This document shows, piece after piece, positions 13,075 through 34,328 of a DNA stretch of 64,000 bases (positions within the stretch are counted from its first letter, which is position 1; the number at the start of each line of letters is the position of its first letter). The notes beneath the pieces are model-generated. The model searched no databases. It saw only the letters and a list, made by a program, of their open reading frames with translations, and was not told the origin of the DNA. The translations under genes and the position numbers were made by a program. This DNA comes from Sporosarcina sp. Marseille-Q4063 (GTDB lineage Bacteria; Bacillota; Bacilli; Bacillales_A; Planococcaceae), in contig NZ_CP070502.1 of NCBI RefSeq assembly GCF_018309085.1, forward strand, positions 2,909,001 through 2,973,000, written 5' to 3'.

Positions 13075-13637
13075 CGTTCATAAGCGGCGGCGTTCGAAGC
13101 GGGAAAAGTGCTTTTGCTGAAAAATTACTCGTCGAAAAAGCCGGAAATTGCGGTGGACGACTCGTCTATATTGCATCAGGAACTGCGACGGACGCTGAAA
13201 TGAAAAAACGCATCGAAACCCATCGACAAGACCGCGCTGACTACAACTGGATGACGATTGAAAAACCTGTGAAGTTGGAAGAAGTCGTGCCTTTCATTCG
13301 AAAAAATGATTTTGTCCTATGGGATTGTTTAACGACTTGGCTGGCGAATGAATTATATGCTGGTTGGGAAACGGGAACTGCTTGTATCGCACGACCTAAT
13401 TGCATGGCGCGAAAAGAAGCTCAACTTTATAAAACAATTGAGGCGATTTTGGCAAAAGCCCCGCAGCTCGTTATCGTATCAAATGAAGTGCTAGATGATT
13501 TGCCGCCACAAGATGCGGAAACAAAAACGTATCGAAGGTGGCTCGGTGTGATTCACCAAAAGCTCGTTGCACGGGCCGATACTGCGATTGAAATGGAATT
13601 TGGCATGCCGACGTTTTGGAAAAAGGGGGACGCTTGA
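13056..13637 (+). CDS. cobU: Adenosylcobinamide kinase / adenosylcobinamide-phosphate guanylyltransferase
   Basis: A 193-residue bifunctional nucleotide-loop enzyme that phosphorylates adenosylcobinamide and transfers GMP to give AdoCbi-GDP. The N-terminal P-loop is SGGVRSGKS (about residue 10). The DCLTTWLAN region (about 88) and the VSNEV segment (about 143) are recognisable. The C-terminal portion after VSNEV diverges from classic CobU. It overlaps cobD by 19 bases and couples to cobQ through TGATG. A second CobU-like gene lies 2 kb downstream. Confidence 0.9.
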   Translation: MVRGKLTFISGGVRSGKSAFAEKLLVEKAGNCGGRLVYIASGTATDAEMKKRIETHRQDRADYNWMTIEKPVKLEEVVPFIRKNDFVLWDCLTTWLANELYAGWETGTACIARPNCMARKEAQLYKTIEAILAKAPQLVIVSNEVLDDLPPQDAETKTYRRWLGVIHQKLVARADTAIEMEFGMPTFWKKGDA

Positions 13638-14467
13638 TGAACGGATTAATCGTCTTAGGAACCGCCTCAGATTCCGGAAAATCGATGATCTGCACAGCAC
13701 TATGCCGCATATTAGCCGATGAGGGAGTGCGTGTGACGCCGTTCAAATCACAAAACATGTCTCCTTTTACAGCGCGGGCTGAAAACGGCGAAGTGATAAG
13801 CCGTGCGCAGTTCATACAAGCGACAGCTGCCAGAACGACTCCATCAACTTATATGAATCCAATTATGCTAAAACCGTTAGCGAATTTGAAATCAGAAGTG
13901 TTCATTTTGGGTGAGAAATTCGGTTCTATCGTTGGGATGACGTACCGAGAACAATTTTTTCACCGTGCGATTGAGGCGATTCGTTTATCGCTAGCAAAAT
14001 TGTCGGAAACGTATGAGACGGTCATCATTGAAGGCGCGGGAAGTCCTGCAGAAGTCAATCTGAATGACCGAGAAGTTGTCAATATGCGTGTGGCGGAAAT
14101 CGCAGATGTCCCCGCGGTGTTAGTCGCCGACATTGACCGGGGCGGTGCCATTGCATCCGTTGTTGGAACACTTGAGCTTCTTGTACCGAAGCATCGCGCT
14201 CGTGTAAAAGCGATTCTTATTAATAAATTTCATGGGGACATCTCTTTATTTAAAGAAGGGATCGAATTCATCGAATCATACACTGGCATTCCTGTTATTG
14301 GCGTTATTCCGTACAAAGCGAATCACGGCATTGAAGAGGAAGATGCAGATCGTCCAGTGGCGAAGGCTCCCGTGGGTATTGATAGATACGATGCATGGGC
14401 GGATCATGTGAAAGCGCATATGGACTGGCCATTGATGAAGGAAATTCTATCGCAAGGGGGAAAATGA
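13637..14467 (+). CDS. cobQ: Cobyric acid synthase lacking the glutamine amidotransferase domain
   Basis: A 276-residue protein, against roughly 500 for normal CobQ. Residues about 1-230 are the complete dethiobiotin-synthetase-like ATP-dependent amide ligase: P-loop GTASDSGKS, FKSQNM, EGAGSPAE and ADIDRGG. After the IPVIGVIPY / EEEDAD region it jumps directly to a tail, YDAWADHVKAHMDW, that resembles the extreme C-terminus of full CobQ. The roughly 200-residue GATase domain with its Cys-His dyad is therefore missing in frame rather than truncated. If active, it must use free ammonia. No adjacent gene supplies a separate glutaminase. It starts at TGATG overlapping cobU. Confidence 0.85.
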   Translation: MNGLIVLGTASDSGKSMICTALCRILADEGVRVTPFKSQNMSPFTARAENGEVISRAQFIQATAARTTPSTYMNPIMLKPLANLKSEVFILGEKFGSIVGMTYREQFFHRAIEAIRLSLAKLSETYETVIIEGAGSPAEVNLNDREVVNMRVAEIADVPAVLVADIDRGGAIASVVGTLELLVPKHRARVKAILINKFHGDISLFKEGIEFIESYTGIPVIGVIPYKANHGIEEEDADRPVAKAPVGIDRYDAWADHVKAHMDWPLMKEILSQGGK

Positions 14468-15231
14468 TGAACGGCATCTTGCTTGCATTGCAATTTTTCA
14501 CAGTGCTTCCAATACGAAAAGAATTGCCGCTCGGTCGAAAAGAAGTGACCGCGATGTATATAGCACTTCCGTTCGTAGGGGCGGCAATCGGACTCATTAT
14601 GTACGGTGTTTCGGAATTACTGCTCAGCGGTTTTTCGACTGGCACATTCCTCGCGGCTGTATTCATCGTGTTGACAGGAATACTCCTGACAGGTGGTTTG
14701 CATCTCGACGGTTGGACCGACACCGCGGATGCGTTCTTTTCCTATCAAGACCGGGAAAAACGGCTTGAAATTATGGAAGATCCACGGATTGGCGCGTTCG
14801 GTACAATGGCGTTAGTTTTTCTTATCCTAATAAAAATCGCTATATTTCATGAGGTTATGGAACAGGATTTAGCGCATTTTATGCTGTTTGCTGCAATCCC
14901 TTTCCTCGCAAGGATTGGAATGAATATTTATTTTTCTACCATACCTACCGCTAAAAAATCGGGGCTTGCGCATTTTTTTCAAGAAAAACTTCATCCAAGA
15001 ATCGTAGTCTTTGTTTCGCTACTAAGTGGACTTGCCATATCAATCGTAGTCTGGCTCTTAGTTGAAAGCGTTATCGTTCCACTTCTTTTATTCATCCTGC
15101 TGGCAATCGGTATTTTGCTCTTCCGTCACTGGTCATTAAAACATTTCGGAGGCGTAACGGGCGATTTATCAGGCGCATTCATTGAAGGGATGGAGGTTAT
15201 TTTATGGTTTGCAGTATTACTGTTCATTTAA
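14464..15231 (+). CDS. cobS: Cobalamin synthase (AdoCbi-GDP ribazoletransferase)
   Basis: A polytopic membrane enzyme of 255 residues that joins AdoCbi-GDP with alpha-ribazole or its phosphate. The conserved acidic segment GGLHLDGWTDTADAFFS (about residue 80) and the DPRIGAFG motif (about 105) are intact, and several hydrophobic helices follow. ATG 14464 overlaps the cobQ stop and has GGGGG upstream. It completes the nucleotide loop using substrate from CobU and from CblS/CobC. Confidence 0.93.
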   Translation: MMNGILLALQFFTVLPIRKELPLGRKEVTAMYIALPFVGAAIGLIMYGVSELLLSGFSTGTFLAAVFIVLTGILLTGGLHLDGWTDTADAFFSYQDREKRLEIMEDPRIGAFGTMALVFLILIKIAIFHEVMEQDLAHFMLFAAIPFLARIGMNIYFSTIPTAKKSGLAHFFQEKLHPRIVVFVSLLSGLAISIVVWLLVESVIVPLLLFILLAIGILLFRHWSLKHFGGVTGDLSGAFIEGMEVILWFAVLLFI

Positions 15232-32667: not shown

Positions 32668-32706
32668 GCGCTCCTACTGCGAAACGTTGCAGCAGGGCGC
32701 TTTTTT
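32668..32706 (+). promoter_or_regulatory. pyrG: pyrG leader attenuator (reiterative-transcription type)
   Basis: GCGCTCCTACTGC and GCAGCAGGGCGC form a stem followed by TTTTTTATTTT. The 5' arm contains CTCCT, which a run of extra G residues at the transcript start could pair with, preventing termination when CTP is scarce. This is the mechanism described for B. subtilis pyrG. Confidence 0.8.
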
Positions 32707-32738
32707 ATTTTACTAGACTAAATTCGGAGGAATTGAAC

Positions 32739-34328
32739 ATGACAAAATACATTTTTGTAACAGGCGGAGTTGTTTCTTCTCTTGGAAAAGGAATCACGGC
32801 AGCATCACTCGGTCGCTTGCTGAAAAATCACGGACTGCAAGTAACAATTCAAAAATTCGATCCATATATTAACGTCGACCCGGGAACAATGAGCCCGTAC
32901 CAACACGGAGAAGTTTTTGTCACGGAAGACGGCGCAGAAACAGACCTTGACCTTGGCCATTACGAACGCTTTATCGATATCAATTTAAACAAATACTCCA
33001 ACGTCACAATGGGGAAAGTGTATTCTTCCGTACTGAAAAAAGAACGCCGCGGCGATTACAACGGTGCAACAGTTCAAGTAATTCCCCATATTACAAATGA
33101 AATAAAAGACCGTATTCTCGCATCAGGTAAAAACACGAATGCAGACGTCGTCATTACAGAAGTTGGCGGAAGTGTCGGGGATATCGAGTCCCTTCCGATT
33201 CTAGAAGCCATCCGTCAAATGAAAACGGACTTCAACAAAAATGACATCATGTACATTCACTGCACGCTGATTCCATACATGAAAGCGGCAGGCGAAATGA
33301 AAACGAAACCGACGCAACATAGCGTAAAAGAACTGCGCAGTCTCGGAATTCAACCAGACGTCATCGTCGTTCGTTCTGAACAAACAGTGCCACAAGAAAT
33401 GAAAGATAAAATTGCGCTTTTCTGTAGCGTACGTCCAGAAGAAGTCATTGAAGCAGTCGACGCGGACATCCTTTATAGAATGCCGCTCATGCTGAAAGAA
33501 CAAAAAATGGACGACATCGTCATCGATCATCTCCAACTAAAAGCTGGAGAGGCGGACATGTCAGACCTGCACGCACTCGTTGACTTAGTAAGTTCAGTTT
33601 CGAAAAAAGTGCAAGTCGCCCTTGTCGGAAAATATGTCGAGCTTCCAGACGCTTATATTTCAGCGGTCGAAGCACTTTCACATGCAGGGTACCAATTCGG
33701 TACAGAAGTCGAAGTGAAGTGGGTTGATTCGGAACAAGTGACTTCGGAAAACGTTGCCGAACTATTAGGCGAAGTGGACGGAATCATAGTCCCTGGCGGA
33801 TTTGGCGATCGTGGAATTGATGGGAAAATCGAAGCCATCACGTACGCTAGAGAAAACAACGTGCCATTTTTCGGAATCGCACTCGGCATGCAACTGGCAG
33901 CCGTTGAATATGCGCGAAATGTGGTCGGCTTAAAAGATGCACATTCAACAGAGTTTAATCCGGAAACAAGCAACGCAATTGTACGAAAAGACACTGACCA
34001 AAATGGCACAATGCGTCTCGGCGTCTACCCAATTAAAATAGAAAAAGGCACAAAAGCTAACGCGGCATACGAAGAAGAGTTGATTTACGAACGTCACCGC
34101 AACCGCTACGAATTCAACAACGAATACCGCGAACAGCTTGAAGAAGCAGGCTTGATTTTCTCCGGAAACAGCCCGAATGGCCAATTTGTCGAAACCATTG
34201 AGCTAGGAGATCACCCATTCTTCGTCGCATGCCAATTCCACCCAGAATTCGCATCACGCCCAACACGCCCGCAACCACTAATCAGCGCGTTTGTTGAAGC
34301 AACGTTATCGCATCAATCGGGTAAATAA
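32739..34328 (+). CDS. pyrG: CTP synthase with the glutaminase cysteine replaced by alanine
   Basis: A 529-residue enzyme that aminates UTP to CTP. The N-terminal synthetase domain is normal: [19 protein letters not shown]-loop region (about 8-25), [11 protein letters not shown] and [10 protein letters not shown]. In the C-terminal class I GATase domain the oxyanion segment [10 protein letters not shown] and the QFHPEF dyad (His501, Glu503) are present. The nucleophile motif GICLGMQ reads GIALGMQ, with Ala381 encoded by GCA at 33879-33881 (equivalent to E. coli Cys379). The domain is also about six residues shorter before GTMRLG. Glutamine hydrolysis should be impossible, leaving ammonia as nitrogen source. 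ATG 32739 follows CGGAGG. Confidence 0.95.

Follow-up and report, generated by a model that had tools for sequence, protein, structure and literature searches.

A CTP synthase and a CobQ with altered glutaminase parts

The present analysis deals with two glutamine amidotransferases, the CTP synthase PyrG and the cobamide enzyme CobQ, encoded in a 64,000-nucleotide stretch of the genome of Sporosarcina sp. Marseille-Q4063, and with the state of glutamine use in the remaining amidotransferases of this genome and genus. The stretch, hereafter the window, covers positions 2909001-2973000 of a one-contig, 3.98-Mb genome (the window genome, G000) that is 99.98% complete. An earlier note on this DNA had proposed that both enzymes lost glutamine use by different routes while keeping their ligase parts, and that biosynthesis in this organism runs on free ammonia. 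The first of these proposals holds: in PyrG the catalytic cysteine is replaced by alanine, in CobQ the GATase_3 domain is deleted, and the ligase parts are kept in both. The features concerned are the following:

32739..34328, + strand: pyrG, CTP synthase with a predicted dead glutaminase site (NCBIfam PRK05380; motif GIALGMQ)
33879..33881, + strand: codon GCA (Ala) replacing the catalytic Cys (nucleophile elbow GIALGMQ against the usual GICLGMQ)
34236..34247, + strand: His/Glu motif FHPE of the PyrG triad, kept (sequence reading)
13637..14467, + strand: cobQ without the GATase_3 glutaminase domain, consisting of the synthetase domain and a C-terminal tail (profile matches, alignment)

The pyrG open reading frame spans 32652-34328, with a probable ATG start at 32739, and its product shows the full CTP synthase architecture (PRK05380, 827 bits, positions 2-531 of 534; N-terminal domain PF06418, 428 bits). 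A profile search of the genome gave no other PyrG match, and among named PyrGs the closest, at 94% identity, comes from Sporosarcina jiandibaonis. The replaced residue corresponds to Cys 379 in the numbering of the Escherichia coli enzyme (PMC9138612). Alanine stands at the same site in two near relatives (G040 and G008) and is therefore not a sequencing error. Judging from this residue, the window PyrG would have lost its glutaminase activity. In this regard, a variant of the E. coli enzyme whose glutamine-dependent activity is undetectable is described as almost fully active with NH4Cl (PMC9138612).

CobQ comprises 276 residues from its ATG, and its match to PRK00784 (319 bits, against a cut-off of 273) is confined to positions 1-236 of the 480 in the profile. 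GATase_3 (PF07685) has no match in this protein or anywhere in the window genome, and the same profile matches in 14 of 14 control genomes. When aligned with two full-length CobQs (494 and 502 residues, from plasmid records), it lacks about 218 columns, in which the glutaminase domain lies. A C-terminal tail of about 20 residues, YDAWADHVKAHMDWPLMKEIL, is kept; its comparison with one full-length CobQ is well supported (score 38, best of 1000 shuffles 37), while with the other the score was equalled or beaten in 486 of 1000 shuffles, which lends no support. The best 120 of 6955 CobQ homologues all have 262-287 residues and the same two Pfam domains without GATase_3; many are named Sporosarcina and one is from Filibacter tadaridae. 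That search accepted 0.55-1.75 times the query length, a range that excludes most full-length CobQs.

Other amidotransferases of the window genome

Reading the remaining amidotransferases led us to reject the idea that only two genes are affected. Nine more functions are disabled or were not found (CarA, PurQ, AsnB-like, TrpG, PabA, HisH, PdxT, GlmS and GltB), so that the genome-wide loss of glutamine use anticipated in the earlier note is borne out. CarA carries GIGLGHQ (Cys to Gly), GGNYPV and QFYPEA (His to Tyr) and is followed by open frames that we read as carB. PurQ, which at one point was taken to be missing, is present (NCBIfam PurQ, 286 bits), diverged and without its catalytic residues (GVGNGFQ, Cys to Gly; GILPLPERA, His to Leu). 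Two AsnB-like proteins above the TIGR01536 cut-off begin with MNGFTGF (from a GTG start) and MGGFVGG, that is, with Asn and Gly in place of Cys2; for comparison, the corresponding starts are MSGFTGF in congener G022 and MCGITGW in G070, from outside the genus.

The class I glutaminase profile PF00117 has five matches in the window genome: CarA, GuaA, PyrG and, by reading, a C26-peptidase-like and a PfpI-like protein. It follows from these identities that there is no TrpG, PabA or HisH. Gene names in the operons concerned are our reading of the sequences, except for the TrpE/PabB-type proteins, which rest on profile matches. The trp operon runs E-D-C-F-B-A without trpG; pabB is followed by pabC-, folP-, folB- and folK-like frames, with pabA absent; and in the his operon hisB, hisA and hisF are found but hisH is not, a spacer of 278 bp separating hisB from hisA. 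Next to the lost or dead glutaminases, the genes of the trp, his, pab and pur groups have open frames.

PdxT was not found in the window genome by a search that reached E<1e-60 in 7 of 10 relatives with a live PyrG. GlmS matches there are limited to the N-terminal domain of PurF and a SIS-domain protein. No match was obtained in the window genome for GltB, for which G068 and G070 served as clear positive controls, or for glutamine synthetase (GlnA), which was matched in 14 of 14 control genomes. As for possible routes of ammonia entry, the genome encodes an NADP-glutamate dehydrogenase, two NagB proteins (one above and one just under the TIGR00502 cut-off; one nagA-linked, one solitary) and urease, with ureC surrounded by frames that we read as ureA-, ureB-, ureE- and ureF-like; the urease expected in the earlier note is thus present.

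The synthases could alternatively be fed in trans, if glutaminase activity had moved to another protein. The C26-peptidase-like and PfpI-like class I proteins, of unassigned role by our reading, would be the candidates. However, such a protein would need to serve PyrG, CarB, PurL, TrpE, PabB, HisF, AsnB and CobQ alike, and no TrpG, PabA, HisH, PdxT or GATase_3 protein was found, in searches that did not include plain glutaminases. We regard this explanation as very improbable.

Within the hisB-hisA spacer (L297 7884-8161), where hisH is missing, lies an array of a 21-bp unit with three exact cores. The unit consists of TGCAAGCAAA plus about 11 variable bases and recurs in the window at 8172 (single core), 25889-26024, 41465-41558 and 49618-49774, amounting to 18 exact cores, all of them in the same orientation.

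Survey of the genus

The genus sample comprises 68 Sporosarcina genomes, the window genome counted in. PyrG, GlnA, GlmS, ureC and PdxT were scored in all 68; CarA was read in 46 (the other 22 lack a CarA row among the matches listed), PurQ and PurF in 56, and GuaA in 50. The PyrG cysteine is replaced throughout (68/68), by Gly in 34 genomes, Ser in 31 and Ala in 3. This count uses, for G049, a PyrG piece that is only 56% identical and probably foreign (L163); a second piece in that genome (L164) is genus-like, with Ser, and both lack the Cys. The CarA cysteine is Gly in all 46 genomes read, nine of which also show the His to Tyr change; two of the other 22, G001 and G006, yielded no match when searched with CarA of the window genome. 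In PurQ, Cys to Gly together with His to Leu was read in 50 of 56 genomes.

GuaA presents a more varied picture. Its cysteine is lost in 38 of the 50 genomes read (Ser 21, Gly 6, Asn 5, Ala 3, Asp 1, Glu 1, deleted 1) and both motifs are kept in 10. The GuaA match is broken within the glutaminase domain in 16 of the 68 genomes, and seven of these, read in the DNA, lack 49-77 reference residues. PdxT was found in none of the 68. A strong TrpG/PabA-like PF00117 protein appeared, among the matches listed, only in G020 (L179) and G035 (L189), where it is intact and lies beside a PabB/TrpE-like frame, possibly as part of a gained cluster.

Since comparable states are seen in as many as 68 separate assemblies, and the window genome is a single, nearly complete contig, a sequencing, assembly or annotation artefact is ruled out for practical purposes.

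The genome that we take for S. pasteurii (G019, not known to be strain DSM33) has dead PyrG, CarA and PurQ with the GuaA motifs kept, lacks GlnA and GlmS, and bears urease.

Distribution outside the genus and history on the tree

Outside Sporosarcina, the PyrG cysteine is present in 38 of 40 family genomes from 18 sister genera, against 0 of 68 inside the genus, a difference that is therefore not due to chance. The remaining two, which are all the genomes read of genus g8, carry a PyrG that nests inside the Sporosarcina clade; in one of these (G074), CarA reads GIGLGHQ and PurQ GLGNGFQ. By comparison, G068 has intact CarA and PurQ, and CarA is likewise intact in G070. Among 80 named PyrG loci, 70 have the Cys, six Cys-less ones are Sporosarcina (one of them filed as Arthrobacter beigongshangensis), two have Gly and two were unmatched. 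The motif pattern used on these loci missed L008, L067 and L081; L008 proved to be Ala when re-read, and the other two are the unmatched ones. The two Gly cases lie outside the clade, in L051 (Bacillales MAG bin_7_DannyCat) and L069 (Dolosicoccus paucivorans), and are apparently independent.

A tree was built from the PyrG synthase domain (112 rows) with the trait columns left out. G049, which stood on a very long branch in a first tree in which 44 of 105 inner branches were open owing to weak support, was dropped together with the outgroup L052. On this tree the dead/live state of PyrG changes once and the identity of the residue nine times. GuaA shows 3 changes between Cys kept and lost and 13 of residue; GlnA changes 12 times, GlmS 8 and UreC 9. 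With the outgroup rooting of the first tree, this suggests that PyrG lost its nucleophile once, ahead of the radiation of the genus, and that GuaA has decayed repeatedly since.

The dead glutaminase domain of PyrG remains present and under selection. Its dN/dS is 0.018-0.107 in 13 dead pairs versus 0.024-0.084 in 7 live pairs, and that of the synthase domain is 0.006-0.044 in the dead pairs. The ratio of summed dN, glutaminase over synthase, is 4.1 for dead and 2.6 for live pairs, a difference given without significance test; the pairs share genomes, and one dead pair (G019-G067) has a ratio below every live pair. These values suggest a purifying constraint that is relaxed yet present, which fits a scaffold role.

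Points against a general loss of glutamine use, and the distribution of urease

Several observations weigh against the reading that glutamine has been abandoned altogether. In the window genome, GuaA keeps its motifs (GICYGTQ and FHPES) and PurF keeps its cysteine (EECGVFG). Consequently, one glutaminase may still work, and glutamine use is not provably zero. The idea that all amidotransferases are dead was thus rejected, GuaA being kept in the window genome's own subclade, and a genome in which every amidotransferase lacks a working glutaminase is not what we found. The residue inspection proposed in the earlier note accordingly gave a mixed outcome, with CarA, PurQ and the AsnB-like proteins altered and these two enzymes unaltered. 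Across the genus, the PurF cysteine is kept in all 56 genomes read, and PurQ is intact in 6 of 56, all of them from one subclade in which all six genomes read share this state; a possible explanation is that this subclade re-acquired glutamine use. GlnA was found in 41 of 68 genomes, one of them (G063) holding fragments only and counted as GlnA-less, which leaves 40 with a GlnA gene, and GlmS in 31. The solitary type of NagB occurs in the GlmS-less G006 (70% identity) and also in the GlmS-bearing G001 and G022; as it is present with and without GlmS, it was rejected as a marker of GlmS loss. Fifteen congeners have no convincing ureC and still have a dead PyrG, as do both g8 genomes, neither of which has a convincing one. 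All absences are based on six-frame searches, and a chimeric query missed the diverged PurQ, which was found by direct reading. Finally, S. pasteurii strains other than DSM33 are described as glutamine-requiring in the part of the source available (PMC7775470).

The six genomes with intact PurQ (G001, G005, G007, G024, G025 and G047; loci L307, L433, L370, L349, L350 and L362) all carry GlnA and GlmS, and five of them, all but G024, have no convincing ureC. The glnA fragments of G063 lie at C1:1289519-1289887. In G036, C1:1662805-1663089 is a likely glmS remnant, similar to the GlmS N-terminal domain (39% over query positions 15-109) and interrupted by five stops. In G023, G033 and G057, GlnA is matched only by a diverged form (E about 1e-98 to 1e-101).

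A convincing ureC is present in 53 of the 68 genus genomes, a figure that includes the partial match of G043. The other 15 comprise 13 without a match and two, G011 and G025, with matches only at E about 7e-4 and 9e-4. Among 12 other family genomes searched, one has ureC, a weak match of 476 residues in G073 not being counted. Urease is thus frequent in the clade without being universal there. Within the genus, GlmS and GlnA occur together in 29 genomes, GlnA alone in 11, GlmS alone in 2 and neither in 26 (Fisher p 6e-8); p is 0.003 for GlmS with UreC and 0.017 for GlnA with UreC, all values being uncorrected for kinship. Because the well supported branches provide only 2-3 independent pairs, these three associations are inseparable from kinship on the PyrG tree.

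These data bear on a rival explanation, in which glutamine shortage rather than ammonia surplus came first: glutamine synthetase would have been lost, and the glutaminases would have decayed for lack of substrate. GlnA is indeed absent from the window genome and 26 congeners and fragmentary in G063, 26 of these 28 GlnA-less genomes also lack GlmS, and the basal lineages of the PyrG tree are mostly GlnA-less. Nevertheless, 40 of 68 genomes keep GlnA with PyrG dead in every one of them (and CarA dead in those of them read), which disfavours GlnA loss as the root cause. Moreover, the PyrG cysteine changed once on the tree and GlnA 12 times, a count into which regain of GlnA by transfer may enter. 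On balance, we hold this order of events to be unlikely, if the least unlikely of the rival accounts.

Neighbouring genes and other repeats in the window

CobQ lies in a cobamide locus whose other members are the following:

11040..12008, + strand: cbiB, adenosylcobinamide-phosphate synthase (TIGR00380 above cut-off)
11995..13074, + strand: threonine-phosphate decarboxylase, CobD type (TIGR01140 just above cut-off)
13056..13637, + strand: cobU (PF02283, 139 bits; below the NCBIfam cut-off)
14395..15231, + strand: cobS, true start probably after the end of cobQ (PF02654; TIGR00317 above cut-off)

A second CobU-like protein, of 153 residues (15683-16144), matches the C-terminal half of CobU only, the full CobU being that at 13056-13637. 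A second repeat class, AAACGACCAAAG, occurs at window positions 1109-1157 and 34404-34540.

Discussion

Our results extend two altered enzymes of one window to most of the amidotransferases examined in a genus, and the generalisation made in the earlier note, which is our main finding, is confirmed at the level of sequence. Free ammonia as donor has precedents among single enzymes. AsnA-type asparagine synthetase performs ATP-dependent amidation with free NH3 in vivo. Single-domain NadE does likewise (PMC3376133), as we propose for the Sporosarcina synthases. In that source the glutaminase-less NadE is proposed to be ancestral, in contrast to the Sporosarcina state, which would have arisen by loss. 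Table 1 of the same source lists no glutaminase-less share for PyrG (800 genomes), GuaA (730), AsnB (700), PurL (660), CarAB (600) or TrpDE (570) (PMC3376133). The nearest parallel is vertebrate carbamoyl phosphate synthetase 1 (CPS1), which keeps a dead glutaminase domain as Sporosarcina CarA and PyrG do: the human enzyme has Ser294 in place of Cys, an inactive glutaminase-like domain, and uses free ammonia, according to the text available (PMC4655335). The same trait, a dead glutaminase domain beside an intact synthase, is found here in CarA with its carB frames and in the dN/dS values of PyrG. However, CPS1 is a single ammonia-detoxifying enzyme, whereas in Sporosarcina most of the amidotransferases examined are involved, and in a free-living bacterial genus. 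Among the titles and abstract openings listed, we found no description of a genus-wide glutaminase loss; most subscription journals lay outside the search, and the novelty is hence provisional.

The physiology of S. pasteurii, a member of the same genus, fits what the genomes predict. As far as the accessible text of PMC7775470 goes, this species requires ammonia, has neither glutamine synthetase (GS) nor glutamate synthase (GOGAT) activity and possesses a low-affinity glutamate dehydrogenase (GDH) (Morsdorf and Kaltwasser 1989, as cited in PMC7775470). In the S. pasteurii literature found, no link was drawn from this physiology to dead amidotransferase sites, and no paper among those searched joined Sporosarcina with amidotransferases.

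The same physiology bears on a further rival, plain reductive decay of pathways made unnecessary by the uptake of bases, amino acids and amino sugars. The auxotrophies of strain DSM33 (Met, Cys, thiamine and nicotinate) and its better growth with amino acids (PMC7775470) point in that direction. On the other hand, DSM33 grew in a defined urea medium that lists folic acid and no nucleobases, amino sugars or vitamin B6, its growth without glutamine is reported, and the required amino acids named belong only to the aspartate and serine groups (Met and Cys), in the portion of PMC7775470 available. The synthase halves are kept besides, as the low dN/dS of the PyrG synthase domain and the open trp, his, pab and pur frames indicate. 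We therefore consider such decay quite improbable.

The lack of GlmS calls for a separate comment. GlmS is not known to use external ammonia. Akkermansia muciniphila has no GlmS and has NagB (PMC5902328), like the window genome. In the text available of that report, amination by NagB was judged non-physiological, with a Km for NH4 of 41 mM and a requirement for GlcNAc (PMC5902328); the defined medium of S. pasteurii, in contrast, lists no amino sugar (PMC7775470). In ureolytic cultures, at pH 9.3, the reverse reaction could be physiological.

Taken together, we consider it probable that an ancestral switch to free NH3 as donor was followed by decay of the glutaminases through substitution, gene loss and excision. 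The synthase parts of these enzymes would have taken free cytosolic NH3 in the ancestor of the Sporosarcina clade, and selection for glutamine hydrolysis and for channelling would have ceased as a result. Where fold, assembly or regulation depends on the glutaminase, it may have persisted as a dead scaffold (PyrG, CarA, PurQ, the AsnB-like proteins and, in most congeners read, GuaA); where separate or removable, it would have been lost (TrpG, PabA, HisH, PdxT and the CobQ domain), glutamate synthase having gone altogether. GlmS and glutamine synthetase would also have been lost in part of the clade, the window genome included. In GlmS-less members, NagB running in reverse, from fructose-6-phosphate and NH3, most likely makes glucosamine-6-phosphate. 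Urease would supply nitrogen as NH3, which would be incorporated by direct amination and through glutamate dehydrogenase. The underlying cause may be a high ammonia level at alkaline pH; ammonia abundance, as put forward in the earlier note, is in our view the best available explanation, favoured by urease in the window genome and most congeners and weakened by the ureC-less members with a dead PyrG.

In its broadest form, a reading towards which we lean with some reserve, the free-living Sporosarcina lineage would for the most part have dropped glutamine as its biosynthetic nitrogen currency. NH3 would directly supply the nitrogen of pyrimidines, purines, tryptophan, folate, histidine, asparagine-type products and cobamides and, via reverse NagB in about half of the species, that of amino sugars, with ammonium dependence built into the active sites.

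Glutamine use with NH3 channelling is treated as near-universal, and Sporosarcina would offer a natural experiment on why channelling exists. From the parallel decay of its amidotransferases one may learn which parts of the glutaminases serve a structural need, and what keeps PurF from following. Our findings also provide a candidate molecular reason for the ammonia requirement of S. pasteurii, the species employed most often in microbial calcite precipitation (PMC7775470), one that would be relevant to the design of its media.

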